Source: Pseudomonadota bacterium (GTDB taxonomy: Bacteria > Pseudomonadota > Alphaproteobacteria > Rhizobiales > Xanthobacteraceae). Taken from it: a DNA stretch of 64,000 bases. Position numbers and translations under genes: made by a program. The DNA is taken from the NCBI GenBank assembly GCA_963204905.1, contig CAUJJN010000382.1, forward strand, positions 1 through 64,000. The letters run 5' to 3'. Below are positions 43,077-61,419 of this stretch, one piece after another; position 1 is the stretch's first letter; each line of letters opens with the position of its first letter. The notes under the pieces were generated by a model. It did not search any database and had not been told where the DNA came from. It was given only the letters and a program-made list of their open reading frames with translations.

Positions 43077-43178
43077 GGACAACTTGGCCGCTGGTTTTTG
43101 ACATATTGTCCGCCCACGCCAAACGACACAGCCTAAATTCTTGATTTATCTAGGTTCGCATATTGGCACGTCTGTTGC
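43077..43178 (+). promoter_or_regulatory. P1: paired upstream activator sites and sigma-54 promoter of csbD
   Basis: Left site GGACAACTTGGCC (43077-43089), right site TGACATATTGTCC (43099-43111), centres 22 bp apart. The sigma-54 promoter TGGCACGTCTGTTGC (43164-43178) has GG and GC exactly 10 bp apart, and its GG begins 54 bp after the right site. The csbD start is 82 bp further on. Confidence 0.85.
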
Positions 43179-43260
43179 GTTTGCTTGATGCGATGCGCGC
43201 CGACGCGTGGCACCCGGCACCGCGTCTGTGACGATCAGGCGAGACAACAAGGAGACGAAA

Positions 43261-43467
43261 ATGAACTGGGATCGCATCGAGGGAAATTGGAAAGCCGCAA
43301 AAGGCGCACTCAAGGCAACATGGGGAAAGCTGACCGACAACGATCTCGACGTCATCAATGGCGACAGGGAGCGGTTGGAAGGCAAGCTTCAAGATCTCTA
43401 TGGCATTGACAAGGCTCAGGTCCGCAAGGAAGTCGACAAGTGGGCCAAAGAGGCGAACTGGGACTGA
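43261..43467 (+). CDS. csbD: CsbD family stress protein
   Basis: 68 residues: MNWDRIEGNWKAAKGALKAT followed by WGKLTDNDLDVINGDRERLE and LYGIDKAQVRKEVD, the whole CsbD domain. AAGGAG lies just upstream. CsbD proteins are small, helical and induced by general stress; their molecular action is unknown. Here the gene is directly behind sigma-54 promoter P1, unlike the sigma-B control known in Bacillus. Confidence 0.93.
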   Translation: MNWDRIEGNWKAAKGALKATWGKLTDNDLDVINGDRERLEGKLQDLYGIDKAQVRKEVDKWAKEANWD

Positions 43468-43664
43468 ATTCAAGTTTTCCAAACAGCTCCGGCAGTAGCG
43501 GGGCATTCCGTTTTCAATACACCATAAACTCAACATGGGTTCAGCGCTGGCGCATCACTTGGAACGAACGCGATCACCGCCCACGTGATGAAGTATGTGG
43601 AACAAGTGCTTCGCGCCAAGCTGAACCTGGATTTATTGAATCTGAACAAGATATGAGGATCTAA

Positions 43665-43874
43665 ATGTCGAAAGATCACGACGAAGCTTCGCACGGCTCA
43701 CAAGACGCGCGCCGTCATAAACTCGACCATCAAGTACGAAACGAGTGGCTTGACAGAGACACTGGCCTCCAGCAGGCGTGGCAGACATCGGGCATGACGC
43801 GCGATGATTTTATCCGGCACAACGAAGGCATGATCGACAAGGTTATTTCCGCGAATCTTGACCGGGATCGGTAA
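43665..43874 (+). CDS. Small hydrophilic protein of unknown function
   Basis: 69 residues, rich in Asp, His and Arg (SKDHDEASHGSQDARRHKLD near the start), no membrane segment and no family I recognise. GAGGATCTAA precedes the ATG. It lies 197 bp after csbD on the same strand and may be read from P1. Its acidic and His-rich make-up resembles other small stress proteins of this island. Confidence 0.6.
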   Translation: MSKDHDEASHGSQDARRHKLDHQVRNEWLDRDTGLQQAWQTSGMTRDDFIRHNEGMIDKVISANLDRDR

Positions 43875-44286
43875 TACCTGTCGCTAATTCCTCTGCTGCG
43901 CGCGGCGTGCCGGGGAGGATCGCCGAAACGATCGACAAGGCCGCTTCGTCTCGCGACGCGCTCCAGCGCTAAAGCTGCTCCGCCCGGTGCGAGTCGCGCC
44001 GGGCGTCGCGGTGCTGATGAAAGACAGTCACGGCTATCGCCTCTGCGGCTGGATGAAAGGCTGCGTGACGTTGTGGGCGGCAAGGTCGCGGTTGCAGCGT
44101 ACCACTGACCGGCCCTGGAGCTCCGCCGCGGTCGCGCGTACAAAAGCCGGCGGTCGGGACACTCAGCCACCTCACCACCGCTTTGCGCGAAAATCCGCCG
44201 ATACCCAATACAATATGGAATTCTGGAATTGTTCTGCCAGAGTGTCTAAGAATTTCAGATACCTGAGGCGAGAGGTCTCCCGAAAC
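43875..44286. other. Gene-free stretch before the cardiolipin synthase-like gene
   Basis: About 410 bp. The reading frame of the next gene is open through most of it, but the phospholipase D family similarity begins only at about 44287. No activator site or sigma-54 promoter is seen. Confidence 0.45.
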
Positions 44287-45747
44287 ATGCTGGCGTGGCT
44301 CGAACTGCCGCTGTTTTTCGTTCACTTGATGGCAGTAGCGCGAGCAATCACCCGCGCGAACAGGGAGCCCGCTGCCCGCGTCGCATGGGTCGCGGTCATC
44401 ATGTTCCTACCGCTGCTCGGCGTCGTTGCCTATCTGCTGCTGGGAGAGACCAACATCGGACGGGAGCGGCTTCGTCGGCTAAAGGCGGCGGAAGATCGCG
44501 TGACGCGTCCTGACGAGACGAGCCATGCGACGGACGCCATTGCCCCCGAAGCGGCTGCGCAGTTCGACCTCTGCGGTTCTATCAATGGATTGGGTCCCGT
44601 GAGTGGCAACCGCATTGCACTTCTCGGCAATCCGGACGCATCGAACACTCACCCGACGCTGGATTCCGACAGCGCGATCGATGCTCTGGTGCAGGATATC
44701 GAACGGGCAACGGAGCACGTCCACATCGGTTTCTACATCTGGCTCGACGATGGCAATGGCGGCAAGGTCGCCGACGCTGTAGCTGCTGCCTCACGACGAG
44801 GCGTGCACTGCCGGGTAATGGTGGATGCGTTGGGGTCCCGCGGCTTTATCCGCGGAAAGCGCTGGAGACAGCTGCGCGGAGCGGGTGTGTCGCTTGTCGC
44901 AACGTTGAACGACATTCCACGTTTGGGGCACCTCGCCGTTGGGCGCCTCGATCTGCGCAACCATCGCAAACTCGTCATTATCGATAACAGCATCGCCTAT
45001 TGCGGCAGCCAGAATTGCGCCGACCCAGAATTCCGGATCAAGGCAAAGTACGCGCCCTGGGTGGACATCTTTTTCCGGTGCGAAGGGCCGGTTGTGCGGC
45101 AGGCGCAGTATTTATTTCTGTGCACCTGGACCGCTGAAACCGGCGATCCGCTGGAAGGGCTGGCCGCCGCCCAACCGGCGCCACAACGCTTCGAGCCGGG
45201 AGCGGTGGCGCAGATGTACGGTACCGGGCCGACGACGCCCGGCAATGCGATGTCCGATTCCTTTGTCGGCGCAGTCTATGCCGCGCGCAAGGAGCTCGTC
45301 ATCACGACACCTTATTTCGTGCCGGACGAGGCTGTCTTGCGCGCTCTATGCGCGGCCCCGCGCCGAGGTGTGGCGACCACGATCGTCTTTCCCGAGCGCA
45401 ACGATTCATGGCTGGTGGGAAATTCCAGCCGCAGTTGCTACGCGGATCTGCTCGTCAATGGTGTGGACATCTACGAATATTCGTTGGGGTTGCTGCACAC
45501 AAAATCAATTACTATCGACGGCAAGATCGCCCTGGTCGGGTCGGCCAACATGGACCGACGCAGCATGCAGCTCAACTTCGAGAACAACATGCTAGTGGCG
45601 GATGAGGTGGTCGCCGCCGCCGTTCGCGCGCGACAGCAGAGTTATCTTGGCGTGTCACGGCCAATCGCGCTCGCCACCGTCAAGGCTTGGCCATTCCATA
45701 AACGGCTCGTGCAGAATGCGGTGGGCATGACGGCGCCGGTGCTCTGA
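44287..45747 (+). CDS. Cardiolipin synthase-like phospholipase D family protein
   Basis: 486 residues from the ATG at 44287. Two N-terminal membrane helices (LAWLELPLFFVHLMAVARAI and AWVAVIMFLPLLGVVAYLLL) of the PLDc_N domain are followed by two catalytic HKD motifs: HRKLVIIDNSIAYCGSQN and HTKSITIDGKIALVGSANMD. This is the bacterial cardiolipin synthase layout (Cls, two phosphatidylglycerols to cardiolipin plus glycerol) at the inner membrane. The open frame extends to 43987, and 44215 is another possible ATG. In a stress island it would adjust membrane lipid under heat, osmotic or solvent stress. Confidence 0.88.
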   Translation: MLAWLELPLFFVHLMAVARAITRANREPAARVAWVAVIMFLPLLGVVAYLLLGETNIGRERLRRLKAAEDRVTRPDETSHATDAIAPEAAAQFDLCGSINGLGPVSGNRIALLGNPDASNTHPTLDSDSAIDALVQDIERATEHVHIGFYIWLDDGNGGKVADAVAAASRRGVHCRVMVDALGSRGFIRGKRWRQLRGAGVSLVATLNDIPRLGHLAVGRLDLRNHRKLVIIDNSIAYCGSQNCADPEFRIKAKYAPWVDIFFRCEGPVVRQAQYLFLCTWTAETGDPLEGLAAAQPAPQRFEPGAVAQMYGTGPTTPGNAMSDSFVGAVYAARKELVITTPYFVPDEAVLRALCAAPRRGVATTIVFPERNDSWLVGNSSRSCYADLLVNGVDIYEYSLGLLHTKSITIDGKIALVGSANMDRRSMQLNFENNMLVADEVVAAAVRARQQSYLGVSRPIALATVKAWPFHKRLVQNAVGMTAPVL

Positions 45748-45812
45748 CCGGAGAGCCTTTGTAGGCATCGGAACAATTTCCACCAGCGGTCTTTCAATGG
45801 GGAAGCGGTCTT

Positions 45813-46169
45813 ATGAATGATGGGCACACTGGGAACGACAATCGGTTGGGGAGCCAGCGCGACGCGGATTTGAGCAAGCGGCTTCACCACCTCGAGGAAA
45901 AGCTTGCAAAGACGAAAGCCGACCAGGAGCAAGCCCGCTCTGACGACGGCGCAGCGAGCTCGTCAACATCCGGTTCGGCCATGGCGTATGGTTTGCGCTT
46001 GTCGTCGGAGTTCGTCGCCAGTGTCTTGGTTGGCGCCTCCCTCGGCTGGGTGATGGATCATTTCCTCCCGACATCCCCATGGGGTTTGATTGCCTTTTTC
46101 CTTCTCGGCTTCCTCGCCGGACTGCTTAACCTCGTGAGGGAGACCCAGCGTCGATCAACTCGGCCATGA
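45813..46169 (+). CDS. AtpI-like F0F1-ATPase-associated membrane protein
   Basis: 118 residues: a charged, probably coiled-coil N-terminus (LSKRLHHLEEKLAKTKADQE), then two hydrophobic helices in the AtpI/YbaN-like pattern LSSEFVASVLVGASLGWVMD and GLIAFFLLGFLAGLLNLVRE. GGGGAAG lies upstream. AtpI assists c-ring assembly or Mg transport in ATP synthase operons, but no ATP synthase gene is near, so this is a stand-alone stress-island copy. It follows the cardiolipin synthase-like gene by 65 bp. Confidence 0.83.
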   Translation: MNDGHTGNDNRLGSQRDADLSKRLHHLEEKLAKTKADQEQARSDDGAASSSTSGSAMAYGLRLSSEFVASVLVGASLGWVMDHFLPTSPWGLIAFFLLGFLAGLLNLVRETQRRSTRP

Positions 46170-46290
46170 GGGAATTGTCAGGCTTACACGTTCGAGCGAG
46201 GCGCCGGAGTCGCGGCGCGTCGGCCGATATCAGGCCAAATTCTGAGGAACATAATTTCAAGCACCTAAGGCCCGCCGCCATGCCACGCCC

Positions 46291-46345
46291 GGTCATTTTG
46301 TCCATCTGAGCAGGACAGATTGTCCATAGATATCAATGATATAAT
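46291..46345 (+). promoter_or_regulatory. P2: paired activator sites next to a sigma-70-like -10 box, no sigma-54 promoter seen
   Basis: Left site GGTCATTTTGTCC (46291-46303), right site GGACAGATTGTCC (46313-46325), centres 22 bp apart. At the distance where the other promoters have GG-N10-GC there is none. Instead a perfect TATAAT (46340-46345) starts 15 bp after the right site, which would cover the -35 region. The regulator may therefore repress here or act with another sigma factor. Confidence 0.6.
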
Positions 46346-46390
46346 AAATTATCATGGAGGCAGAAGAATTTACAACATGGGAACTTGGCC

Positions 46391-48658
46391 ATGGCGGACG
46401 GCAAGGCGCGGTTCAAGACTTACAATCACCCCGCCGGGGGCTGGGGCGCGGCGGCGGCCACGACGAAGATCCTTCTCGAGCAGAGTGTTGTGACCAAGGG
46501 GTCGCGGGCCCTCCTCTCGATGAACCAGCCCGGCGGGTTCAAATGTCCGAGTTGCGCCTTTCCCGATGCCGAATGCAAGAAGACACTCGATTTCTGCGAG
46601 AACGGCGCCAAGGCGCTGGCATTCGAGGCGACGAAATTCCGTGTGACGCGCGAATTCTTCGAACAGCACACCGTTTCCGAGCTGATGGAGCAATCGGACC
46701 ATTGGCTCGAGATGCAGGGGCGTCTCACCGAACCGATGCGCTATGATGCTGCCTCGGACCGGTACGTTCCCTGCAGTTGGGACGATGCCTTCGCGCTGAT
46801 CAGCGAGCATCTGCGAGCTCTCGAAAGTCCACATCACGCGGAATTCTACACGTCTGGCCGCACGCCGAACGAAGCAGCCTTCCTCTATTCGATTTTCGTG
46901 CGCGAATTCGGGACGAACAATTTCCCTGACTGCTCGAACATGTGCCACGAGCCGACCAGCCGCGGCCTGCCGCCGTCGATCGGCATCGGCAAGGGCACCG
47001 TGATCCTGGAGGACTTCGACCACGCCGAAGCGATCTTCGTGATCGGCCAGAACACTGGCACGAACTCGCCGCGCATGATGAGCAATCTGGTCGAGGCGCG
47101 CAAACGCGGCGCACCAATCGTCGCCGTCAATCCGATGCCGGAGCGCGCTTTGGTGCGCTTCGCCGACCCGCAGGATGTCATCCAGATGGCAACCTTTGGT
47201 TCAACCAAGATCGCCAGCGAATTCGTCCACATCAAGATCGGCGGCGACCTCGCCCTGGTGAAGGGCATGATGAAGGTGATCTTCGAACGAGAAGCGTCCG
47301 GCGAACAGATCATCGACTGGGACTTCATCCGCGAGCATACAGTTGGCCTGGAGCCGATCCGCGCGGATGCCATCGCGCAGACATGGCGGGAACTGGAGCA
47401 GGCATCGGGGGTCGCGGAAGAACAGATTCGCCGCTGCGCTGAAATCTACATCCGCTCCAACGCGACGATGATCTGCTATGGCATGGGCATCACCCAGCAC
47501 CAGGAAGGATCGCGCCTGGTGCAGCAGCTGGTGAATCTGCTCCTGCTCAAGGGAAATTTCGGCAGGCCGGGTGCCGGCATTGCCCCCATTCGCGGGCATT
47601 CCAACGTGCAGGGTGATCGGACAGTCGGCATCGACGAACAGCCAAGCCAGGCTTATCTCGACCGCATTCGCGACGTATTCGGCTTTGAGCCGCCCCGAGC
47701 TCATGGCCATCACACCGTCGAGACCGTGGCCGCGGCGGTGGCGGGGACGGCCAAGGTGTTCATCGGCCTGGGCGGTAATTTTGTTCGCGCGGTCCCTGAC
47801 ACCGAGCGCTCCTACGCCGCGATGCGCCAGCTCGCTCTCACTGTTGCGATCACCACCAAGCTCAATCGCGGACATCTGGTCCACGGCCGCGATGCCTTGA
47901 TGTTGCCGGTCATCGCTCGCTCGGAGATGATCTCGACTGGCGCCGGCGAACAGTTCGTGACGATCGAGGATTCCATGTCGAATGTCACCGCGTCGCGTGG
48001 CGTGCTGACGCCAGCAAGCCCGCACCTCTTGCCGGAAGTGGAAATCGTGTGCCGGATGGCGCTCGCCACCCTGCCGGGGAGCAAGGTGGACTGGAAGAGC
48101 TATATCGATGATTACGAACTGATCCGTGACAAGATCGCGGAGGTTTATCCGGAGATTTACAGCGACTTCTCAGAGCGCATCAAGAACCCGAGAGGCTTTC
48201 ATCTCGATATCCCGCCGCGCCGCCGGGTCTGGCCGACACCAAACGGCAAGGCGAATTTCCAGCCGCTACCTGGCCTCGAAGTGAATGTGCCAGTTGCCGA
48301 TCCGGCGATGCTTCGTCTTGCGACGGTGCGCTCGCACGATCAGTTCAACACGACGATCTATAGTAACAACGACCGTTATCGCGGGGTCTACAATGACCGC
48401 ATGATCGTCTTCATGAATGCCGACGACCGCGCCGAGCGCGGGCTTGCGAGCGGCGCCAGCGTGGCGATGGAGACGATCAGCAACGATGGCGTGCAGAGGC
48501 GCGTCGATGGGCTGACAGTGCTCGACTATCCAATGCCGCGCGGCTCGATCGCCGGATATTACCCGGAACTTAATCCGCTCCTGCCACTCGACTACTACGA
48601 CAAGATCAGCGGCACACCAGCCGCGAAGTCGATCCCTGTGCGCGTTATCGCCGCGTAA
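46391..48658 (+). CDS. FdhF/YdeP-type molybdopterin oxidoreductase
   Basis: 755 residues from the ATG at 46391 (TTG at 46385 is possible). It has the molybdopterin oxidoreductase fold with GQNTGTNSPRMMSNLVEARK and a C-terminal dinucleotide-binding domain. The N-terminus has GGFKCPSCAFPD in place of the four-Cys 4Fe-4S motif of true formate dehydrogenases, which is typical of the YdeP branch (acid resistance in E. coli). No signal peptide is seen, so it should be cytoplasmic. The substrate is unproven; formate is possible, and an NAD-formate dehydrogenase occurs at 61707. Monocistronic, behind P2. Confidence 0.88.
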   Translation: MADGKARFKTYNHPAGGWGAAAATTKILLEQSVVTKGSRALLSMNQPGGFKCPSCAFPDAECKKTLDFCENGAKALAFEATKFRVTREFFEQHTVSELMEQSDHWLEMQGRLTEPMRYDAASDRYVPCSWDDAFALISEHLRALESPHHAEFYTSGRTPNEAAFLYSIFVREFGTNNFPDCSNMCHEPTSRGLPPSIGIGKGTVILEDFDHAEAIFVIGQNTGTNSPRMMSNLVEARKRGAPIVAVNPMPERALVRFADPQDVIQMATFGSTKIASEFVHIKIGGDLALVKGMMKVIFEREASGEQIIDWDFIREHTVGLEPIRADAIAQTWRELEQASGVAEEQIRRCAEIYIRSNATMICYGMGITQHQEGSRLVQQLVNLLLLKGNFGRPGAGIAPIRGHSNVQGDRTVGIDEQPSQAYLDRIRDVFGFEPPRAHGHHTVETVAAAVAGTAKVFIGLGGNFVRAVPDTERSYAAMRQLALTVAITTKLNRGHLVHGRDALMLPVIARSEMISTGAGEQFVTIEDSMSNVTASRGVLTPASPHLLPEVEIVCRMALATLPGSKVDWKSYIDDYELIRDKIAEVYPEIYSDFSERIKNPRGFHLDIPPRRRVWPTPNGKANFQPLPGLEVNVPVADPAMLRLATVRSHDQFNTTIYSNNDRYRGVYNDRMIVFMNADDRAERGLASGASVAMETISNDGVQRRVDGLTVLDYPMPRGSIAGYYPELNPLLPLDYYDKISGTPAAKSIPVRVIAA

Positions 48659-48923
48659 GACGGCGACGCGCCTGGCAGCACGTCGGCATTGCGCGCGCTT
48701 GAGAATTTGTAACCGCAGCTCCGGCTTCATCGGCCGACATGTCGCCGGGATCGCGCCTGCTGGAAAGCGCCGTGGTCTGTTGACTCGATGGCGAGGGCAT
48801 TCAATTGTTCGCCGAGATCGACCGCGATTACTTCACGATGATTACTTCACGATCATGGGTCTGCCATGGCTTGTGGTCCTTGGCGAGTTGCCGCGCCTAA
48901 GAGCTGTCCACTGTTGAGTGGGC

Positions 48924-49026
48924 GGTCATTTTGTCCGTCTGATGTTGGACAACTTGACCATGCATTGCCGTTGCCGAGCGGCAGAGCATTGAAATCGCGC
49001 ATCTTTCGATCTGGCACGCTGATTGC
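48924..49026 (+). promoter_or_regulatory. P3: paired activator sites and sigma-54 promoter of grpE
   Basis: GGTCATTTTGTCC (48924-48936) and GGACAACTTGACC (48947-48959), centres 23 bp apart; sigma-54 promoter TGGCACGCTGATTGC (49012-49026) with GG beginning 54 bp after the right site. The grpE start is 162 bp beyond the -12 element. The 529 bp between 48658 and 49188 hold no other gene. Confidence 0.87.
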
Positions 49027-49187
49027 GTTCGCTTTGAACGGAATACGCAGCGCGCCGGCGCAAAGTGACGGATGAAGTACGAGGCAATGAAGCCGCGCCT
49101 TGCACAAGGCGCTATGGCCATCGTTCTCGATGGCGCACTGAGGGCGTCGCGCAAAATGCCCGGCAATCGTGACAATAGAGGCTCGCC

Positions 49188-49838
49188 ATGACAAACAATT
49201 CACCGCCGCACCGTGCAGACCGCCGCTCGCAAAATGACCCCGATGGGGACAAGCCGTCTCACGCTACTGACCCTGCCGCAGCCCTGAAGCCCGAAGCTGA
49301 CAACGCAGCCGCTGCGTCGGAAGCCAAGGCCGCACCTGCCGGCGCTGAGGCGGGCGGGGCCGCGGAAGATGCACACGAGCTTACCGCGCGCCTCCAGGCC
49401 GAAAACGCGAACCTGAAAGATCGCTTGCTGCGCGCCCTGGCGGAGGCCGAAAACGTCCGGCGTCGCTCCGAGCGCGATTTGAACGACATGCGCCAATACG
49501 CGGTGACGAAGCTTGCCGGCGACATGGCGAATGTTGCCAACAATCTGGAGCGTGCCTTGAGCAGTTTGCCGTCGGAGCTTCGCGCCGGTGAAGGTGCGCT
49601 CAAGACTTTCGTGGAAGGTGTCGAACTCACGGAGAAAGAACTTATCCGCTCGCTCGAAGCGCATGGTGTCAAAAAGATCGACCCAACGGGAACGCGCTTC
49701 GATCCGAATCTCCACGAAGCCTTGTTCACCGTTCAGGATCCGTCTGTCCCGAGCGGAACGGTTACGACCGTGGTTCAGCCTGGCTATACGATCGGGTCGC
49801 GCCCGTTGAGGCCAGCCAAGGTTGGTGTCGCGAGCTAA
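49188..49838 (+). CDS. grpE: GrpE nucleotide exchange factor
   Basis: 216 residues. An Ala/Asp-rich disordered N-terminus is followed by the long coiled coil (LTARLQAENANLKDRLLRAL, AEAENVRRRSERDLNDMRQY) and the C-terminal beta wing PNLHEALFTVQDPSVPSG. It releases ADP from DnaK and serves as the thermosensor of that cycle. Here it has its own sigma-54 promoter P3 and stands before dnaK, separated by another sigma-54 promoter. Probably an accessory copy in addition to a housekeeping grpE elsewhere. Confidence 0.95.
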   Translation: MTNNSPPHRADRRSQNDPDGDKPSHATDPAAALKPEADNAAAASEAKAAPAGAEAGGAAEDAHELTARLQAENANLKDRLLRALAEAENVRRRSERDLNDMRQYAVTKLAGDMANVANNLERALSSLPSELRAGEGALKTFVEGVELTEKELIRSLEAHGVKKIDPTGTRFDPNLHEALFTVQDPSVPSGTVTTVVQPGYTIGSRPLRPAKVGVAS

Positions 49839-49993: not shown

Positions 49994-50096
49994 GGACATT
50001 TTGTCTTTGAGGCTTTGGACAACTTGTCTCGGGTTTGCTGAACTCTCGACTTAACCCTTTGAATTTTCGCCGCTTTGGAACTGGCACATGTGTTGC
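49994..50096 (+). promoter_or_regulatory. P4: paired activator sites and sigma-54 promoter of dnaK
   Basis: GGACATTTTGTCT (49994-50006) and GGACAACTTGTCT (50017-50029), centres 23 bp apart; sigma-54 promoter TGGCACATGTGTTGC (50082-50096), GG beginning 54 bp after the right site. I find no CIRCE or sigma-32 box in this region. Confidence 0.87.
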
Positions 50097-50429: not shown

Positions 50430-52322
<1,893 letters not shown>

Positions 52323-52464: not shown

Positions 52465-52968
52465 ATGAAACGATACTACTCGACCGCCGCTATGCTCGCG
52501 CTTGGAACAATGCTGAGTGCACTCGGCTCAACTGCGCATGCGCAGCAATCGGCCCCTCCGCCCGTGCAGAAGGTGCAGGTCGGCGTGCTTGAATGCAAAG
52601 GCGGCCCGACCATTGGATTCATCGTCGGCGCGGTTACCAATCTCGCCTGCGTCTTGCGCATCAACGGGGTACCCGAAGACTACTACATCGCGACGATTCA
52701 GAAGGTCGGCATCGACATCGGCATTACCGAGAGCACCGCGCTCGCATGGGCAGTGTTTGCCCCCGTCGCCCAGCCCGGCCGCGGTGATATCGCGGGGACC
52801 TATACCGGCGTCGATGCCATGGCTGCAGCAGTCGTCGGAGTAGGCGGCAATGTGCTTCTGGGTGGTTCGAACAACAGCATTGCGCTACAGCCTGTCAGCG
52901 TGGAAGCTACAACCGGCGTGATCATCGCCGCAGGGCTGGAGAGCATGACCCTTCAGCCAGGTCGTTGA
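52465..52968 (+). CDS. DUF992 family exported protein
   Basis: 167 residues from the ATG at 52465 (GGAG 9 bp before). Signal peptide MKRYYSTAAMLALGTMLSAL ending at AHA-QQ. The mature part contains VGVLECKGGPTIGFIVGAV, NGVPEDYYIATIQKVGIDIG and a Gly-rich C-terminus (VVGVGGNVLLGGSNNSIALQ), matching DUF992, a periplasmic family common in Rhizobiales with no known function. Located between dnaK and the J-protein gene, it may be an envelope stress component. Confidence 0.85.
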   Translation: MKRYYSTAAMLALGTMLSALGSTAHAQQSAPPPVQKVQVGVLECKGGPTIGFIVGAVTNLACVLRINGVPEDYYIATIQKVGIDIGITESTALAWAVFAPVAQPGRGDIAGTYTGVDAMAAAVVGVGGNVLLGGSNNSIALQPVSVEATTGVIIAAGLESMTLQPGR

Positions 52969-53201: not shown

Positions 53202-54110
53202 GTGGCTACGAACCCGTATGACGTATTGGGCGTTTCTGCTTCGGCGTCGGCCGCCGACATTCAGAAGGCCTACCGCAAGCTTGCGAAGAAACTGCACCCG
53301 GACCTGAACCCTGGCGACAAAGCCGCCGAGGAGAAGTTCAAGGAGGTAGCGGGTGCCTATGACCTGCTCGGCGATGCCGACAAACGCAAGCGCTTCGATA
53401 GCGGCGAGATCGATTCGACGGGCGCCGAACGTCCCCAGCATTCCTATTACCGGGACTACGCCGATGACGGCGATTCCCATCGGTATTCCAACGGCGCCGG
53501 CTTCGCCGACTTCATGGACTCTGACGACGCGTTCGCCGAGCTGTTCAGGCGCGGTCAGCGCGCCCGGGCGAACCGTCGCGGCGAAGACATGCATTTTCGG
53601 CTGCCCATCGAATTTGTCGAATCCATCACCGGGGCGACCAAGCGGATTACGCTTCCCGACGGCGGCACGCTCGAGGTTAAGATTCCTGCGGGCCTCATCG
53701 ACGGGCAGACCCTGCGCCTGAAGGGCAAAGGCGCTCCGGGCACCGGCACGGGCGGCCCGGGCGATGCCCTGATCGATGTCGAGGTCATGCCGGATCGCCG
53801 TTTCATACGCGACGGTGACGACATCAGGATCGAGGTACCGGTATCGCTTTCCGAGGCTGTTCTGGGCGGCCGGATACGCGTGCCAACGCCGACAGGTGAC
53901 GTGACCATGGCCATTCCGAAGGGATCGAACAGCGGAACCACCTTGCGCCTCAAAGGCAAGGGCGCACCGCTCCGCGGAGGTGGCAGTGGCGATGAGTTCG
54001 TGACGCTGAAGGTGGTTCTGCCGAAATCACCCGATCCGGCGCTCGAGGCGTTTGTCGAAGGCTGGGCCAAAGGCAAAGAGTTCAACCCGCGCGAAGGCAA
54101 TCCGGCATGA
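53202..54110 (+). CDS. cbpA: CbpA-type DnaJ co-chaperone
   Basis: 302 residues, GTG start behind GGGGGA. The J domain (residues 1-70) has the HPD motif in [18 protein letters not shown]. There is no zinc-finger Cys repeat; the two C-terminal client-binding beta domains follow ([34 protein letters not shown]). This is the CbpA class, not housekeeping DnaJ. Its stop overlaps cbpM by 4 bp. It stimulates DnaK ATPase and is held in check by CbpM. Confidence 0.92.
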
Positions 54111-54397
54111 CGTTGAGCAAGCAACAATTTTTGACGACCTCGGGACTGCGGGTGCACACCCTTGAGCTTTGGCTCGAGCAGCAATGGCTCATTCCGGTGG
54201 AGACGACGGACGACGGGGCAACCTTCTCGGATGTCGATGTCGCTCGTGCGCGGTTGATCTTGAATCTCAAGGACGACTTCGGGATCAATGACGAGGGCAT
54301 CGACGTCATCCTTCATCTCCTCGATCAACTTCATGGCGCCAGGCAAGCCATGGCGGTGTTGCGCGCAGCTGGCACCGATCGACCTGGAGACGCCTGA
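54107..54397 (+). CDS. cbpM: CbpM chaperone modulator
   Basis: 96 residues of the MerR-like CbpM family: [20 protein letters not shown] and [26 protein letters not shown]. CbpM binds the J domain of CbpA and blocks its action. The ATGA overlap with cbpA implies coupled, stoichiometric synthesis. A full DnaK-CbpA-CbpM set under one regulon points to tunable chaperone capacity. Confidence 0.9.
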
Positions 54398-54446
54398 ACA
54401 TTATTCGGTTCGTCGGCGGGCCGACGGTATAGGAGCAGGTAGATCG

Positions 54447-54960: not shown

Positions 54961-55104
54961 TTGAAGCACGGGGATCGTCTTGCGGCCGATGCCAAAGCCG
55001 TCGCGACCGGACGTTTTGGCATCGGCAGATTGCTTGCCTGGTTCGCGGCTTCGTTCGGCATGGGACTATCCATTGCACTGGAGAAGGCGATCGCATTGTT
55101 TTGA
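54961..55104 (+). CDS. Possible 47-residue membrane-anchored small protein
   Basis: A TTG start gives a short basic N-terminus and one hydrophobic helix (GIGRLLAWFAASFGMGLSIA), ending 35 bp before the response regulator. Start codon is weak and no ribosome binding site is evident, so this is tentative. The preceding 54698-54946 stretch has an 82-codon frame I do not trust. Confidence 0.3.
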   Translation: MKHGDRLAADAKAVATGRFGIGRLLAWFAASFGMGLSIALEKAIALF

Positions 55105-55139
55105 GATGAGCGCCTGGCAGGCGCCTGGAGTAAGCATGA

Positions 55140-56528
55140 ATGTCTGGAGAAACCCATCGCGAAGACGCTGAGCCGCCTGTCGCCCCTGAATTCGGGCCCT
55201 GGCTCGCTCAGGCCTCCATACTGATCGTTGATGACGAGCCCGGGATCCGCAATTTCCTGGTCAAGATGCTGCGCCCACGCTGCAAGCTCATCTGCGAGGC
55301 CGCCGACGCCAGGGAAGCATCGAGAAAGCTCGACGAGCAACATTTCGATGTCGTGATCCTGGACAATGTCATGCCGGGCAAAACAGGCCTGGATTGGCTC
55401 GCCGAGCAGCGCGCCATCGGCTTCTTCGCCGATGTGATCCTGATGACCGCCTATGCCGATCTGGATACCGCGATCGGCGCCTTGCGCATCGGCGTCATTG
55501 ATTTTGTCATCAAGCCGTTCCGGTCGAATCAATTGCTCAACGCGATCGCACGCTGTCTCGACCGTGCGCGACTGGAGCGCGAAAACTACGTCCTGCGCCA
55601 TGAGAGGCAGTTGCCCTCCCGCCAGCTCTATTTGCGCGACAAATTGCTCGGCACGTCGCCGGCAATCGACCAGGTACGCAAGACGATCGCGAGGGTCGCG
55701 CCGTTGCCGACATCGATCCTGCTGACAGGCGAATCGGGAACGGGCAAGGAGGTCGCGGCCAGATCAATCCACTCGCTGTCGAACCGGGCCGACAAGCTGT
55801 TCGTCCCGGTCAACTGCGCCGCCATTCCAGCCGATATGCTGGAAAGCGAGCTTTTCGGTCATGTGAAAGGCGCCTTTACCGGCGCTGGCAAGGCGCGTGA
55901 AGGCCTTTTCATGTCCGCCGAAGGCGGAACGCTGTTCCTGGACGAGATCGGCGAACTCCCATTCCATATCCAGAGCAAGCTGCTGCGTGCACTCGAGGAG
56001 CGCAAGGTTCGTCCGGTCGGCTCGGAACGGGAAATCCCGGTCGACGCCCGCTTCGTCTTCGCCACGAACGTCGACCTTGAGGCGGGTGCTGCGGCCGGAT
56101 CGTTCCGTGCCGATCTCTACTATCGCATCAACATCATGCAGATCCATTTGCCGGCGCTTCGGGAGCGCGAGCAGGACGTACTCGAACTCGCCGAGCTGTT
56201 CATGCGTGAGATTTCGGGCTCGCTGGGCATGCCCGCCATTGCCATCGACGGTGGGATGCGCGCCTTTCTCTCGCGCTATGACTGGCCCGGCAACATCCGC
56301 GAACTGCGCAACCTGATCGAGCGCACTGTCATTCTCGGCGAATTCCGGGAAGACCACTTGAAGCCACGCGCGCACCTGGGGACTGACAGCGTCACGCTTG
56401 CCGATGTCGAGCGGCGGCACATCCTGTTCGTGCTTCACGAAGCCGGCGGCGACCGCGAGGAGGCCGCGCGGCGGCTCGGCATTTCCCGCAAGACGATCGA
56501 TCGAAAATGCGCAAGCTGGCAGTCTTGA
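55140..56528 (+). CDS. Sigma-54-dependent response regulator (NtrC family)
   Basis: 462 residues in three domains. Receiver (about 22-140): acidic pair in ILIVDDEPG, phospho-acceptor Asp in DVVILDNVMPG. AAA+ domain: Walker A GESGTGKE (about 203), sigma-54 contact loop GAFTGA (about 244-249), Walker B GTLFLDEIGELP, Arg fingers near the C-terminal WPGNIRELRN. Fis-type helix-turn-helix: DREEAARRLGISRKTIDRK. The helix-turn-helix and the six sigma-54 promoters around it make it the natural activator at the GGACA-N3-TGTCC site pairs. GGAG 9 bp before the ATG. It overlaps the kinase gene by 22 bp. No activator site lies before its own start, so it is probably made constitutively. Confidence 0.93.
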   Translation: MSGETHREDAEPPVAPEFGPWLAQASILIVDDEPGIRNFLVKMLRPRCKLICEAADAREASRKLDEQHFDVVILDNVMPGKTGLDWLAEQRAIGFFADVILMTAYADLDTAIGALRIGVIDFVIKPFRSNQLLNAIARCLDRARLERENYVLRHERQLPSRQLYLRDKLLGTSPAIDQVRKTIARVAPLPTSILLTGESGTGKEVAARSIHSLSNRADKLFVPVNCAAIPADMLESELFGHVKGAFTGAGKAREGLFMSAEGGTLFLDEIGELPFHIQSKLLRALEERKVRPVGSEREIPVDARFVFATNVDLEAGAAAGSFRADLYYRINIMQIHLPALREREQDVLELAELFMREISGSLGMPAIAIDGGMRAFLSRYDWPGNIRELRNLIERTVILGEFREDHLKPRAHLGTDSVTLADVERRHILFVLHEAGGDREEAARRLGISRKTIDRKCASWQS

Positions 56529-58543
56529 CGGCGGCCCTGCTCAACAAGCATTCGGTGCGGTTTCGCCTTTTGGCGATCGCACTCTTGCCGATGCTCGTCA
56601 TCCTGCCGCTGCTTCTCGGCATCAGCATCCATCGCTGGAACGCGAAATTCGACGCGGCATTGACGTCCAAGGCCTATGACGACCTGACCATCGCCAGACA
56701 GTACCTGGCGCGGATCCTTGACAACACCCAAAGCCGTCTCGATGCCTCGGTTCAATCGGCGCGGTTCCAATCGATCCTCGCCACCTCCGCCGCAGCGCCT
56801 GCTCCGCTTGGCAATTTTCTGCAAGAGACAGCGACAGCACACGCGCTGAGTTTTCTCTACATCGTGGACAGTAACGGCAAGGTCGTGGCGAGTAACTATC
56901 CCATGGCGGCCGCGCCACGCGCGGATTGGCCGGTCATCACCGCGGCGCTCGGGGGAGCCGCTCGCACGGCGATCGACGTGTTTCAACCCATCGAGCTCGC
57001 CAAATTCTCGAACGACCTTGTCCGGCAGGCGTACGTCGACATCGTCGTGACGGAGCGGAGCCTGCCCACGACCAGAACCCAGGAAACCCGGGGCCTGGTG
57101 CTCCAGTCGGCCGTCCCGTTTGATTTGCCTGACGGCGCGCATGCCGCGTTGGTCGGCGGTATCCTCCTCAATCACAATCTGGGCTTCGTCGACAGGATCA
57201 ACGATCTGATCTTCTCCGAGAGGGGTCTGCCGGAAGGAAGCAAGGGGACCGTCACTCTGTTTCTCGACGATGTGCGCATCAGCACGAATGTCCTCATGTT
57301 CGAGGGGAAGCGCGCTATCGGCACGCGCGTCTCAACCGAAGTCCGAAACGCAGTGCTCGGTCGGGGCCAGATCTGGCTAGACAGCGCCTTCGTCGTCAAT
57401 GACTGGTATGTTTCTGCCTATGAGCCGCTGCTCGACAGCCATGATCGCCGCGTCGGCATGCTTTATGCCGGATATCTCGAGATGCCGTTCACGCAGGCCA
57501 AACGCCAGACGGTGATCGAAATCGCGCTCGCCTTCTTGCTTGCGGTGATCGCCACCGTACCCTTGTTCCTGAAATGGGCCGCGGCGATCTTTCAGCCGCT
57601 GGAGCGCATGACGGACACGATCTCCCAGGTTGAAGGCGGCAAACTGGATGCCCGCACCGGGCCGGTGCCTGGAACGGACGAGCTCACGCGTGTTGCTGTT
57701 CAACTCGACCGGATGCTCGATCGGCTCGGCGAGCAGGACCTGGAGCTCAGGGCCGCGAACCAGACGCTCAATCAGCGTGTCGAGGAGCGGACCAGCAAGC
57801 TCGTACAGGCCAATCGACAATTGGAAACGACGACCAAGCAGCTCATCATGTCTGAGAAATTGGCCACGATCGGCGAGATCACCGCGGGTGTGGCGCACGA
57901 AATAAACAATCCGATCGCGGTGATGCAGGGCAATCTGGAGATCATCAAGGATCTGATGGGCCCGAAAGCGGAGGAGGCAAAGACCGAGTTTCGGCTGATC
58001 GACGAGCAGATGAGCCGGGTGAGCGAGATCGTGACGCGCTTGCTTCAGTTTGCCAAGCCGCAGGAATATGTCGGCTATACGGACCAGTATGACCCCGGGA
58101 CCGTCGTCACGGACACGCTGCCGCTCGTGAAACATCTGCTGAACAAGACGACGATATCGGTCGAAAGGGACTTTCGCGCGACACGATTGGTGACGATGAA
58201 CAGGACCGAGCTGCAGCAGGTTGTCGTCAATCTGCTGGTCAACGCGATCCACGCGATGGCGAAAGGTGGTCGTCTGACGGTGCGGACCTGCGATCGCGAC
58301 GACGGTGCGCGTTACGGCATCGCGATCGAGGTCATCGACACCGGAAGCGGCATGTCGCCCGAGGTAAAGCAGCGAATTTTCGATCCGTTCTTCTCGACCA
58401 AGCAGCGAGAAGGCACGGGTCTTGGGCTTTCTATCAGCCAGATGCTGGTGACCCGCCAAGGGGGCAAGATCACGGTCAAAAGCGAGCGCGGCAAGGGTAC
58501 GGCGTTCACGGTCTGGTTGCCGTCGGTCGACTTATCGCGCTGA
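56507..58543 (+). CDS. Membrane sensor histidine kinase, partner of the sigma-54 regulator
   Basis: 678 residues. Transmembrane helix about 20-40, a large periplasmic sensor of about 290 residues (Cache-like size), second helix TVIEIALAFLLAVIATVPLF (about 333-352), HAMP linker, coiled coil, H-box ITAGVAHEINNPIAVMQG (His about 463), N-box QQVVVNLLVNAIHAMAKGG, G1 DTGSGMSPE and G2 GTGLGLSIS. The start lies inside the regulator gene in another frame (22-bp overlap), implying coupled translation. The large outer domain suggests it senses a periplasmic small molecule or envelope state. Confidence 0.93.
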   Translation: MRKLAVLTAALLNKHSVRFRLLAIALLPMLVILPLLLGISIHRWNAKFDAALTSKAYDDLTIARQYLARILDNTQSRLDASVQSARFQSILATSAAAPAPLGNFLQETATAHALSFLYIVDSNGKVVASNYPMAAAPRADWPVITAALGGAARTAIDVFQPIELAKFSNDLVRQAYVDIVVTERSLPTTRTQETRGLVLQSAVPFDLPDGAHAALVGGILLNHNLGFVDRINDLIFSERGLPEGSKGTVTLFLDDVRISTNVLMFEGKRAIGTRVSTEVRNAVLGRGQIWLDSAFVVNDWYVSAYEPLLDSHDRRVGMLYAGYLEMPFTQAKRQTVIEIALAFLLAVIATVPLFLKWAAAIFQPLERMTDTISQVEGGKLDARTGPVPGTDELTRVAVQLDRMLDRLGEQDLELRAANQTLNQRVEERTSKLVQANRQLETTTKQLIMSEKLATIGEITAGVAHEINNPIAVMQGNLEIIKDLMGPKAEEAKTEFRLIDEQMSRVSEIVTRLLQFAKPQEYVGYTDQYDPGTVVTDTLPLVKHLLNKTTISVERDFRATRLVTMNRTELQQVVVNLLVNAIHAMAKGGRLTVRTCDRDDGARYGIAIEVIDTGSGMSPEVKQRIFDPFFSTKQREGTGLGLSISQMLVTRQGGKITVKSERGKGTAFTVWLPSVDLSR

Positions 58544-58550
58544 CGGAACG

Positions 58551-58652
58551 GGACATTTCGTCTTTTGTGGACGACACATTGTCCTCCGTCGGACCGAAGC
58601 ACGCGGCCACGGCATTGATTTACGGGAACATTCGGTCTGGCATGCGGGTTGC
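58551..58652 (+). promoter_or_regulatory. P5: paired activator sites and sigma-54 promoter of the 58715 operon
   Basis: GGACATTTCGTCT (58551-58563) and CGACACATTGTCC (58572-58584), centres 21 bp apart; promoter TGGCATGCGGGTTGC (58638-58652), GG beginning 55 bp after the right site. It lies directly after the kinase stop. Confidence 0.83.
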
Positions 58653-58714
58653 TTTAAGTTAGGTCGATAGACAACACGGATCAGCGTCGCAAATCATCGG
58701 AAGGAGACCACATA

Positions 58715-58912
58715 ATGTCTCGTCATCACGGCAAGATGCCGCCCGTTCCACCGGCCAATCGCAGTTCGAAAGGCGTGGGTGGCGCCCCCGACGCCAAGCA
58801 GGATACGTCGTCGAAAAAGCGCGAGGACAATGACGCCGAACAGGGCGAGACGGCGAACATTCGCGAGAACACCACCAATGCTGGTTACTTCCGCGGTCGG
58901 CGGGTCAAGTAA
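58715..58912 (+). CDS. Small hydrophilic protein of unknown function
   Basis: 65 residues, Lys/Asp/Glu/Asn-rich, no hydrophobic segment; ending QGETANIRENTTNAGYFRGR, a pattern that recurs in short conserved proteins of Rhizobiales as far as I recall. AAGGAGA precedes the ATG. First gene after P5. Likely disordered; function unknown. Confidence 0.75.
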   Translation: MSRHHGKMPPVPPANRSSKGVGGAPDAKQDTSSKKREDNDAEQGETANIRENTTNAGYFRGRRVK

Positions 58913-58983
58913 GCCGGCCAAGTGAACTGTCGCTGACCGGCATGAGCCATCGGCCATCCGCGTAAATAACAAGGAGTTCCGAG

Positions 58984-59373
58984 ATGACCGTCGTCACTAT
59001 TGCGCAGCTTTCAAAGGATTTGCAGGCATCGGCGCAGTCGGTCATCGATCGGGCGGGGCTTATTCCGCAATCGCCCGATCAGGGTCTGAGCGCCAACGAT
59101 CTGCTGTCCTGTCTCCTTCAGACGTCGATCCCTATGGCGGCCTTTCTGCGCAACAATAGTCTTTACACCGACGACGACGGCTTGCACTTCGATCTGGCCC
59201 GCTTTCCGGCGATACAGGCCGTCGCCAGCCAGATCATTGCCGAATACCAGGCTGGCAATCGCGACGATCTCTGGCAGAAATACGATCTTCAAACGGACGA
59301 GGATGCCGACACGAATGGCGGGTATATTTTGACGGCGCTTGCCACGCTGGAGATACTTTACGGTCCGCGCTAA
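58984..59373 (+). CDS. Hypothetical protein in the P5 operon
   Basis: 129 residues, AAGGAG 8 bp before the ATG. Acidic, mostly helical, soluble (SANDLLSCLLQTSIPMAAFL, PAIQAVASQIIAEYQAGNRD). No family recognised. It follows the 65-residue protein by 71 bp and is probably co-transcribed with it and with the phosphatase. Confidence 0.75.
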   Translation: MTVVTIAQLSKDLQASAQSVIDRAGLIPQSPDQGLSANDLLSCLLQTSIPMAAFLRNNSLYTDDDGLHFDLARFPAIQAVASQIIAEYQAGNRDDLWQKYDLQTDEDADTNGGYILTALATLEILYGPR

Positions 59374-59452
59374 TCCAGGGCCTACGGCGAGCGCAGACTT
59401 TGTGGAAGTGGATGTGTTGTCCTCGGTCCGCTGGGCCGCAACCGGCGAGGGA

Positions 59453-60082
59453 ATGTTGAGCAAAGACCATGTAACGACGCCGAAGACGGTGATGATCATC
59501 CGGCACGGTGAGAAGCTTGGCGATCCTGGCGACGACAAGGACGCGGGGTCTAGTCTGTCCGCACACGGCGCGGCGCGCGCGGCCGCGTTGCCGAGCCTTT
59601 TCCTGCCACCCGCCATGAGCCGTGAGTGTGTGCTGGAACACGATTCCCACGTGGGGCTGACGGCCACCTATGTGGCCGGCAAGGTGCCCAAAGGTGCCGC
59701 GCGGTTTCCTGTGCCGGACTTCCTCTTCTCGACTGCGCACTCGCCGAAAAGCAAACGTCCGAGGCAGACCATCACGCCGCTCGCCGCTGCACTCGGATTG
59801 CCGATCAACCACGATTACAGCGACGACAAGAAGGACATCGACGCGCTCGCCACTCTGCTCCGGACCTCGCACTATGCCGGCAAAACCGTCCTGATCTGCT
59901 GGCATCACGGCACCATATCGAACCTCGCGACTGCGCTCGGCGCCACCGGTGCCACGCCCTGGGCCCCAACAGTGTTCGATCGGGTGTGGGTCATCCACTA
60001 TGATGCGGCACGCGCCATCCGCCAATTCGGCCAGGAACTTCTGTTCGGCGATGAAACAAACGTGCCTACCGCCCCTTGGTGA
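59453..60082 (+). CDS. Histidine phosphatase superfamily protein
   Basis: 209 residues from the ATG at 59453; the frame is open to 59339 but the fold begins at TVMIIRHGEKLG. The phospho-acceptor RHG motif (IIRHGEK) and the second catalytic His in ICWHHGTISN are present. The family covers phosphoglycerate mutases, SixA-type phosphohistidine phosphatases and others; substrate unknown. A protein or small-phosphate phosphatase in a stress operon could be a SixA-like brake on phosphorelay signalling, but that is speculation. Confidence 0.8.
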   Translation: MLSKDHVTTPKTVMIIRHGEKLGDPGDDKDAGSSLSAHGAARAAALPSLFLPPAMSRECVLEHDSHVGLTATYVAGKVPKGAARFPVPDFLFSTAHSPKSKRPRQTITPLAAALGLPINHDYSDDKKDIDALATLLRTSHYAGKTVLICWHHGTISNLATALGATGATPWAPTVFDRVWVIHYDAARAIRQFGQELLFGDETNVPTAPW

Positions 60083-60176
60083 TGCGCGTTCGGAATGAGC
60101 GGGCCCGTGGCGACCACGGCCCGCGGCGGATACTTTCGCTGGCCGTCTACCCCGGCAGCTTCTGCACCAAGGTCTT

Positions 60177-60280
60177 GGACATTTTGTCCGTCAACGAACC
60201 GACAACATGTCCAAGTGGCAGCGACGTCTTTCGGGTAATTGATTGATATTTCAAGCCATACGATCTGGCACAGCTGTTGC
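60177..60280 (+). promoter_or_regulatory. P6: paired activator sites and sigma-54 promoter of the DUF2171 genes
   Basis: GGACATTTTGTCC (60177-60189, a near-ideal half pair) and CGACAACATGTCC (60200-60212), centres 23 bp apart; promoter TGGCACAGCTGTTGC (60266-60280), GG beginning 55 bp after the right site. Confidence 0.87.
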
Positions 60281-60291
60281 TCTGTAGATAA

Positions 60292-60671
60292 GCTACGGTA
60301 ACGCGTCTGCATTGCCGGCCGCTCCTGCAATCCAGCGATCGGCTCCTCTATGCCGAGCACGTGAGTGCCGAAAACGGTAGACCGCCGTTTCGGGCGGCGT
60401 GTCCAGCACGTTTCGTTAGGCGAAAACGATGGTGATGTGTGGCGAAATGTCAGGTCATTCAGGCAATGGCGAACCGCGCGAGAACGCACGTAAGGTCGAA
60501 GGTTCAATATCTCGGCAGGAAAAACGGTCTCACCTTCAACGGGAAGACAACGCCAACGTTGGGCGAGGGGGATGAAATTGTCGCCGTCTGAGGATGGTAT
60601 GGGATCTGATTGACGATATCGCGAAGATCGCCGCGCCGAAATGGAATCGCACCAGCCGATGAGGCATGACG
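60292..60671 (+). other. Long leader before the DUF2171 genes, with a possible 48-codon frame
   Basis: About 380 nt separate the predicted start of transcription from the first DUF2171 gene. A 48-codon frame (60429-60575) encodes a charged peptide with no recognised family and no clear ribosome binding site; I leave it as possible only. Otherwise nothing is seen. Confidence 0.35.
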
Positions 60672-60920
60672 ATGAAGGATAAGATCAAGGAGAACATGGA
60701 GGTCGTTGGATTCGAGGGCGGCCATCTTGGTGTCGTCGACTGCGTCGAAGGGGATCGGATCAAGCTCAAGAAGCGGGACGGCGATCACGGGAAGCAAGAC
60801 AAGCATCACCACTATATTAGTCTTGATCTTGTGAATGATATCCAAAACCATAAGGTTCGGCTTTGCTGCGACGCTGACATCGACGCGCTCTTCGAGGGCA
60901 CAGGTCGGATCGACCGGTGA
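60672..60920 (+). CDS. DUF2171 family small protein
   Basis: 82 residues; start at 60672 because GAGG stands 7 bp upstream (60666 is too close). The PRC-barrel-like DUF2171 pattern is present: ENMEVVGFEGGHLGVVDCVE, GDRIKLKKRDG and HHHYISLDLV. Function unknown; the beta-barrel fold often binds RNA or proteins. Paralogue of the next gene. Confidence 0.85.
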   Translation: MKDKIKENMEVVGFEGGHLGVVDCVEGDRIKLKKRDGDHGKQDKHHHYISLDLVNDIQNHKVRLCCDADIDALFEGTGRIDR

Positions 60921-60989
60921 AATATCGCTCGCTCACGGCGGTCGCCTGGACCATCGCTCACAACTTAAGAAGCACGAAAGGAACATGAT

Positions 60990-61247
60990 ATGATGGCGAA
61001 CAACATCAAAGAAGGTATGGAGATCATCGGCGCGGACGGCGTTCATGTCGGCACCGTCGATCGGGTCGAAGGCGACCGAATCAAGCTCTCCAAGAAAGAC
61101 AGTTTCGGCACCCACGCAGGCCACCACCACTACATCGAGCTCGGTTTCGTTGCCGGTGTCGAGGGCACCAAGGTGCGGCTGTCGGCAAATGCCGATATCG
61201 CGGTGACGTTGGAAGAAGAACCGTCGGGCCGTCCGGTCAACCTGTAG
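60990..61247 (+). CDS. DUF2171 family small protein
   Basis: 85 residues; AAAGGA lies before two adjacent ATGs (60990 and 60993). It shares with its neighbour IKEGMEIIGADGVHVGTVDR, GDRIKLSKKD and HHHYIELGFV, so the two arose by tandem duplication. Behind P6. Function unknown. Confidence 0.87.
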   Translation: MMANNIKEGMEIIGADGVHVGTVDRVEGDRIKLSKKDSFGTHAGHHHYIELGFVAGVEGTKVRLSANADIAVTLEEEPSGRPVNL

Positions 61248-61313
61248 CAACAAGTCGATGCCCAGCGGCGCGCGGCCGGGCACCGATGCGGACTCGCATC
61301 ACCCGCGCACTAT

Positions 61314-61419
61314 GGACATGTTGTCATGAGCCCCATGTACAGCATGTCTGCGCGGGTGCCCGATTATTCAACCTAGCCTATTGATCGCGATAGGAACTCA
61401 AACTGACGCGTCGGTTTCT
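61314..61419 (+). promoter_or_regulatory. P7: paired activator sites with a degenerate sigma-54 promoter, formate dehydrogenase operon
   Basis: GGACATGTTGTCA (61314-61326) and GTACAGCATGTCT (61337-61349), centres 23 bp apart. A weak -24/-12 match, TGACGCGTCGGTTTCT (61404-61419), lies 55-56 bp further on, at the spacing seen at the good promoters. The second base of GG and the G of TTGC are changed, so activity may be low. Confidence 0.6.

Follow-up and report, generated by a model that had tools for sequence, protein, structure and literature searches.

A stress-repair island with paired sites before sigma-54-type promoters and a kinase that likely senses formate

NtrBC, DctBD and ZraSR are the type cases of sigma-54 activation by an NtrC-type two-component system with integration host factor (IHF), and DnaK, GrpE and ClpB are classically RpoH dependent. 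Transferable proteostasis islands have been described as TLPQC or the locus of heat resistance (PMC7685784). In enterobacteria, a transposon-borne operon combines formate dehydrogenase (FDH), DyP-type peroxidase, encapsulin and an RpoH-like gene (PMC10960027, PMC12140327); the available portions of both papers leave its role at a likely stress function. PMC12501870 gives the formate-binding residues of the chemoreceptor PacF (Arg/Thr/Thr), and PMC12316311 reports sigma-54-dependent chaperone genes in Bacteroidota and Planctomycetota, with GrpE and GroES given for Bacteroidota. NtrC-type activation, formate Cache sensors, the FDH-DyP-encapsulin set, transferable proteostasis islands and sigma-54 chaperone genes are known parts of the system described here. 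It lies in a stretch of 64,000 nucleotides (the window) from a draft genome of the Xanthobacteraceae (GCA_963204905.1, contig CAUJJN010000382.1, positions 1 to 64,000), in which, over 22 kb, seven copies of a paired site precede genes whose families are those of protein repair, peroxidases and formate dehydrogenases. No description of this regulon was found among the matches listed in full-text literature searches, which covered few subscription papers. The novelty claimed in an earlier account of this DNA, made from its letters (the sequence-only reading), holds to that extent, but sigma-54 chaperone genes as such have precedent.

Seven intergenic regions between 43077 and 61419 each carry two GGACA-N3-TGTCC-like sites. 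Each site matches 8-10 of the ten consensus bases, and the start-to-start spacings from P1 to P7 are 22, 22, 23, 23, 21, 23 and 23 bp. In P1, P3, P4, P5 and P6 the pair is followed by a sigma-54 -24/-12 element matching 9-10 of ten bases, whose -24 GG follows the second site after 53, 53, 53, 54 and 54 intervening bases, respectively. In the letters themselves the element is TGGCAY-N5-TTGC, i.e. TGGCA-N6-TTGC. A site resembling the IHF consensus, which for scoring we took to be YAANNNNTTGATW (reverse sense), lies at a constant place between pair and promoter, 22-24 bases past the second site.

43077-43178, + strand: P1; sites 43077-43089 and 43099-43111; IHF-like TAAATTCTTGATT 43134-43146 (9/9); sigma-54 element TGGCACGTCTGTTGC 43164-43178
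46291-46355, + strand: P2; sites 46291-46303 and 46313-46325; then a conserved AT-rich segment, with no sigma-54 element
48924-49026, + strand: P3; sites 48924-48936 and 48947-48959; IHF-like 48982-48994 (7/9); sigma-54 element 49012-49026
49994-50096, + strand: P4; sites 49994-50006 and 50017-50029; IHF-like 50052-50064 (8/9); sigma-54 element 50082-50096
58551-58652, + strand: P5; sites 58551-58563 and 58572-58584; IHF-like 58608-58620 (8/9); sigma-54 element TGGCATGCGGGTTGC 58638-58652
60177-60280, + strand: P6; sites 60177-60189 and 60200-60212; IHF-like TAATTGATTGATA 60236-60248 (9/9); sigma-54 element 60266-60280
61314-61418, + strand: P7; sites 61314-61326 and 61337-61349; IHF-like 61374-61386 (7/9); degenerate sigma-54 element TGACGCGTCGGTTTC 61404-61418

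The sequence-only reading had placed seven site pairs, spaced 21-23 bp, exactly here, and its GG distances of 54, 54, 54, 55 and 55 are the intervening bases counted above plus one. Its sixth, degenerate promoter is P7, which matches 7/10 and is broken at the -24 GG as well as the -12 GC; the counterpart in G112, a relative of the same genus, has a perfect element (10/10), and P7 is, judged by its letters, decayed in the window. The TGGCA-N8-TTGC spacer given there has to be corrected to N6. It had also proposed a geometry for IHF-type looping while missing the IHF-like site, which stands where such looping would need one.

Chance does not account for the pairs, as had been allowed for. Over 500 dinucleotide shuffles of the window there were on average 0.02 pairs (at most 2) and no composites of pair and promoter, against 14 observed pair counts (the seven pairs, counted on both strands) and five composites. 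Taken alone, the N6 motif with up to two mismatches is mildly above chance (39 vs 29.3 expected), and an N7-spacer scan showed no enrichment (16 matches vs 17.8 expected). Throughout the draft genome (4.27 Mb, 87% complete) the composite pattern has five matches, all of them in the window, and its reversed control has none.

A regulator and a kinase gene, the second overlapping the end of the first, lie in the middle of the island.

55140-56528, + strand: NtrC-type response regulator; receiver, AAA+ domain with GAFTGA, Fis-type helix-turn-helix (HTH)
56507-58543, + strand: sensor histidine kinase; two-module periplasmic Cache region, HAMP, HisKA, HATPase

The regulator matches PF00072, PF00158 and PF02954 and contains the GAFTGA motif, in agreement with its earlier assignment to the NtrC family. 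Its best 25 of 113 NCBIfam models are all below cut-off, the top one being AtoC (371 vs 714). RpoN is represented in the genome by a PF04552 match in a 194-aa open frame.

Composite promoters track this regulator across genomes. Orthologues at 59-100% identity occur in 18 of 149 genomes sampled from the family, the window's own included; the next relatives stand at 43%, and such weaker relatives (43% or less) are present in all 149. A search of whole genomes and relatives, as proposed in the sequence-only reading, gave matches almost entirely near the regulator and none in the reversed controls: 15 of 16 composite matches in 20 whole genomes fell at the regulator locus, and with a slightly different pattern 38 of 39 matches in 18 whole genomes fell on the regulator contig within ~30 kb. 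The sixteenth match of the first search is in G129, which has no orthologue above 50% and no qualifying site pair. The remaining match of the second (L186:5976-6368, minus strand) stands before a DoxX-family gene on a non-island contig of Rhizobium sp. ICMP 5592, with a pair of 10+8, a sigma-54 element of 9/10 and an IHF-like site of 7/9.

From the GTDB genome set, the best 80 of at least 520 regulator relatives were taken. The composite is present at 36 of 41 loci of an inner regulator clade and at 1 of 57 other loci, in a regulator/kinase tree of 86 rows made by a quick method, where the inner clade (support 87, not starred) was delimited after the composites had been seen. Of the five inner-clade loci lacking it, L089 is on a contig that ends in the kinase, G048 has a weaker pair, G018 and G060 have a pair with the sigma-54 element further away, and L110 has none. 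Because the composite follows the regulator clade across genera and is nearly confined to the regulator neighbourhood, control by the local pair is indicated, and a sigma-54 regulon run by it is strongly supported by these comparisons. The seven-operon regulon proposed earlier is supported in part by genome comparison: P2 looks to be of a non-sigma-54 type and P7 has decayed.

Clues to the probable signal lie in the kinase sensor, which matches sCache_3_3 at residues 221-334 (E 2.6e-28) and Cache_3-Cache_2 (E 3.1e-15). Against PDB sequences its matches are weak and, at the limits used, only two: 8py0 and 8py1, both formate-bound. Arg257, Thr260 and Thr273 (Arg-x2-Thr-x12-Thr) align with both structures and are kept in 86 of 86 kinases. 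The fold also matches 8py0 and 8py1, but many Cache domains score alike, so it is the sequence and the residues, rather than the rank of the fold match, that carry the formate reading (of 75 sensor segments found, 66 passed the length and stop filter; 51 and the window's were in the structure alignment). In view of the formate-bound matches and the conserved residues the kinase likely senses formate, and the locus is read as a likely formate-triggered sigma-54 proteostasis/redox island; formate would replace heat, osmotic or desiccation stress as such, the inputs suggested earlier. In G138, a relative of the same family, the regulator gene is preceded by a perfect pair (10+10) that has no sigma-54 element (L035, 537250-537284), which suggests autoregulation; no such pair was seen in the other regulator upstream regions compared with it.

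Our judgement is that the operons of this stress-repair island, each behind one paired site, are probably switched on jointly when the island kinase senses formate and phosphorylates the regulator. The sites, their geometry, the IHF-like match, the co-occurrence with the regulator clade, the gene families, and the sensor's kinship and residues are what the sequence provides. From these we infer the following steps. On binding formate, the membrane kinase would transfer phosphate to its NtrC-type partner, which would then bind the two adjacent GGACA-N3-TGTCC sites. The stretch from paired sites to promoter would be bent by IHF, and at the fixed -24/-12 element sigma-54 RNA polymerase would be opened by the AAA+ ring of the regulator. 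Formate would be oxidised by NAD-formate dehydrogenase and perhaps also by YdeP with bd oxidase, peroxide would be removed by encapsulated DyP, and proteins would be refolded by DnaK, GrpE and CbpA, with ClpB in relatives. The physiological role would be protection from formate-linked acid, redox or protein damage.

The other genes of the island, with one just outside the window, are listed below.

43261-43467, + strand: CsbD-like protein, first gene after P1 (PF05532)
43665-43874, + strand: small conserved protein, with composite promoters before its counterparts in the islands of G153 and G154
44152-45747, + strand: phospholipase D / cardiolipin-synthase-like protein (PF13091, PF13396); start codon uncertain, the open reading frame (ORF) opens at 43987
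45813-46169, + strand: AtpI-like small membrane protein (PF09527)
46391-48658, + strand: FdhF/YdeP-family molybdopterin oxidoreductase (TIGR01701, 904 bits, cut-off 582)
49188-49838, + strand: GrpE (PF01025)
50430-52322, + strand: DnaK (PF00012)
52468-52968, + strand: DUF992 protein (PF06186); start codon uncertain, ORF opens at 52264
53202-54110, + strand: CbpA-type J protein (PF00226 and PF01556)
54107-54397, + strand: CbpM/HspR-like partner (NF047375, 27.9 bits, below the cut-off of 105)
58715-58912 and 58984-59373, + strand: conserved small proteins behind P5
59459-60082, + strand: weakly histidine-phosphatase-like protein among the P5 genes (PF00300, 19.6 bits, cut-off 21.7)
60666-60920 and 60990-61247, + strand: two DUF2171 proteins (PF09939)
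61461-61655, + strand: conserved 64-aa protein
61707-62867, + strand: NAD-dependent formate dehydrogenase (NF005750, 650 bits, cut-off 329)
62957-64000 in the window, ending at contig position 64030, + strand: DyP-type peroxidase (by Pfam of the G112 homologues)
64026-64829 of the contig, outside the window: family-1 encapsulin (83% match; Linocin_M18 in the G112 homologue)

The families confirm CsbD, GrpE, DnaK (HSP70) and the CbpA-type J protein as the targets named in the sequence-only reading, and its peroxidase is the DyP protein that runs past the window end. Its formate dehydrogenase is borne out by the NAD-dependent enzyme at 61707; the molybdo-enzyme before P3 belongs to the FdhF/YdeP family, is at most a candidate formate dehydrogenase, and falls below the cut-off of the NCBIfam YdeP model (a putative oxidoreductase of acid resistance). 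The DyP C-terminus (...DASLGIGSLKKK...) resembles the encapsulin targeting motif GSLxIGSLK (PMC10960027), and the encapsulin gene adjoins. Past the encapsulin gene there is a match to a small protein at contig 64930-65127 (no search was aimed at RpoH), and a ClpB query had no match on the contig. G112 has a 59% match to the lone AtpI-like gene, whose scanned neighbours include no recognised ATP synthase gene (no search was aimed at these).

The island form, called by gene content, was found in 11 fetched loci from several genera of Alphaproteobacteria and from Pseudoxanthomonas: the window, G112, G138, Rhizobium sp. ICMP 5592, an Afipia metagenome-assembled genome (MAG), Rhizobium sp. BK602, Rhizobiales AFS050986, a Sphingomonas MAG, Pseudoxanthomonas sp. 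3HH-4 and two MAGs labelled Gammaproteobacteria. Its content varies by locus among DnaK, GrpE, CbpA, ClpB, Hsp20, DyP-encapsulin, NAD-formate dehydrogenase and YdeP, with bd oxidase encoded beside YdeP in several relatives. In two loci the stretch examined covers chiefly formate/redox genes: L083, a 5-kb contig with NAD-FDH, and L084, with YdeP, CydA, Hsp20, NAD-FDH, DyP and encapsulin. Island regulators form one clade (SH-aLRT 100), whose most distant members, L109 and L112, are long branches joined together (a tool warning). The extended island stretches hold 42 composites with a sigma-54 element of at least 8/10. The genes behind them include those of DnaK, GrpE, ClpB, Hsp20, DUF308 (which we take to be HdeD-like), DUF1269, CsbD, BON, MoeA, bestrophin, a cation-efflux protein and DUF2171, the set of 64-aa protein, NAD-FDH, DyP and encapsulin, and small proteins of no known family.

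Seven of eight relatives have a full DnaK gene besides the island one; the eighth, G155, shows two more partial matches. In the draft that holds the window, 87% complete, the island copy is the only one seen. Non-island copies cluster by taxonomy (three Rhizobium-type genomes; Afipia, G112 and G138) with the island copies of these strains outside both clusters, in a tree whose bootstrap has not settled and whose central fork is open. The Pseudoxanthomonas island copy groups with that genome's own other copy, apart from the alphaproteobacterial island copies; on this tree a single DnaK origin for all islands is rejected, and cargo did not always travel whole. Judging by this pattern, the switch and much of the cargo appear to have moved horizontally, and cargo can also be local. 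A plasmid location was considered and set aside: a protein search of a plasmid collection (E 1e-120) gave 93 records, nine at 60-80% identity, and the one examined (Rhizobium sp. SL42) is of the transporter type described next. As a look for tRNA-anchored integration, ARAGORN was run on ten loci with the window left out and found one tRNA, on the window's contig 12.6 kb past the encapsulin end, which speaks neither for nor against it.

The island regulator clade nests among regulators that stand beside OFA-type transporters or formate-dehydrogenase-like genes. Of the 72 non-island loci among the best 80, within up to 10 kb on either side, 60 have a window-like kinase, 37 an OFA-type transporter and 53 an FDH-alpha-like protein; 69 have at least one of the latter two. 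DnaK, ClpB, DyP and encapsulin were found at none of the 72 at the limits used. Where a composite promoter is present and the transporter lies directly behind the kinase, the promoter precedes the transporter. In Rhizobium sp. SL42, NCBI annotates regulator, kinase and OFA family MFS transporter in this order. The Fdh-alpha cut-off is passed by an FdsA-like protein of G105 (98% identical to that of Bradyrhizobium australiense) and by that of L160; in one tested set eight of nine FDH-alpha-like proteins are below it, and two that were re-run keep Fdh-alpha as best family. In a Shimia-type locus (L120:2729-9818) a Tat-signal formate-dehydrogenase-like operon (its subunits presumably chaperone-like, alpha and cytochrome-like) and a WD40/cytochrome c-like protein lie directly upstream of the regulator. 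In G065 (L037, L038) a complete composite promoter at 731337 (minus strand) stands behind the kinase before non-OFA genes, by eye an AMP-binding protein (acyl-CoA synthetase) and a branched-chain-type ABC transporter, possibly a third target set. We tentatively suggest, without holding it the likelier history, that a formate uptake/oxidation switch with its enhancer-IHF-promoter cassette was captured by a spreading proteostasis island, turning formate into a repair alarm, and that the pair later gained a sigma-54-free promoter class.

That class would be represented by P2. In eight of nine island YdeP genes, Pseudoxanthomonas included, the pair has no sigma-54 element 46-62 bases on in the YdeP direction and is followed by a shared AT-rich segment (eight-row consensus AT.Ga.A.CAAT.a.ATA). 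By this conservation P2 is a second promoter type; its spacing, at a guess, would suit the promoter class of another sigma factor. An addition compatible with formate control, possible but on the doubtful side, is that the regulator serves both looped sigma-54 promoters and a close-in YdeP promoter of another sigma factor. The pair just upstream of a -35/-10-like AT-rich segment would then make it a class I/II activator or a repressor there. The eight YdeP pairs favour this, but the sigma factor of P2 is a guess, the YdeP gene of L084 has the sigma-54 form, and a bestrophin gene nearby in five loci may account for part of the pair conservation. That gene is divergent behind a sigma-54 element in four loci (G154, G153, G149, G138), where one pair may serve two promoters, YdeP and bestrophin; in G149 the element is weak (8/10, -12 broken). 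That P2 is no more than a relic of a divergent bestrophin promoter is rejected, since Pseudoxanthomonas has the YdeP-type pair with an upstream, co-directional bestrophin.

An unlikely alternative keeps the same sigma-54 regulon and gives it another input (a small carboxylate, acid/redox stress or membrane state), the formate-like pocket being merely inherited. The nearest named model of the OFA transporter is a lactate carrier, most of the targets belong to proteostasis and redox, and the N-terminal Cache module, which could bind another ligand, is less conserved than the C-terminal one between island and transporter-type kinases (46% vs 72%, in a hand-chosen list). Against another input stand the invariant Arg257/Thr260/Thr273, sequence matches limited, with the cut-offs applied, to formate-bound structures, and formate enzymes around the island and ancestral versions alike. 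That these are ordinary RpoH heat-shock genes, their paired sites serving an unrelated regulator, is very improbable, for although the chaperones are classically RpoH dependent and an RpoH-like gene accompanies the enterobacterial operon, near-perfect -24/-12 elements at a fixed distance track one local regulator clade in several genera, and in seven of eight relatives a further full DnaK gene lies outside the island.

If formate is indeed the signal, a class of spreading stress islands would have a testable input, and formate (or formic acid) would be linked to induction of a DnaK/ClpB repair set and an encapsulated peroxidase. A reason would also be suggested for the NAD-formate dehydrogenase that accompanies DyP encapsulins. 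Further members of the regulon could be sought, in any genome, through the compact cassette of two sites, IHF and -24/-12 element.

Each of the known systems resembles one part of the island. The sigma-54-dependent grpE and groES genes of PMC12316311 are in other phyla, and its available text describes no formate-sensing pair, paired enhancer or island. TLPQC and the locus of heat resistance likewise are horizontally spread stress cargo with extra core chaperone copies and HdeD-like and cardiolipin-synthase-like genes. They carry ClpG/ClpK and FtsH2, whereas the island has DnaK-GrpE-CbpA-ClpB and a dedicated sigma-54-type two-component pair; the G138 island disaggregase, the only one scanned, passes the cut-off for ClpB and stays far short of those for ClpG and ClpK. 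The enterobacterial operon has the same NAD-FDH, DyP with targeting peptide and family-1 encapsulin in the same order, but the island is larger, has sigma-54-type paired sites and places a 64-aa protein before the set. With the formate-binding Cache chemoreceptors (8py0, 8py1; PacF, Atu0526, McpF) the sensor shares a weak sequence match, a fold match and Arg-x2-Thr-x12-Thr; those are chemotaxis receptors, whereas the island sensor has a second, N-terminal module and belongs to a histidine kinase whose expected output is transcription. Like the NtrC-type systems, the island has a receiver-AAA+(GAFTGA)-Fis HTH regulator beside its kinase, with upstream paired sites, an IHF-like site and a -24/-12 promoter; unlike them, it keeps a fixed site-IHF-promoter spacing and places several stress operons behind one local pair.

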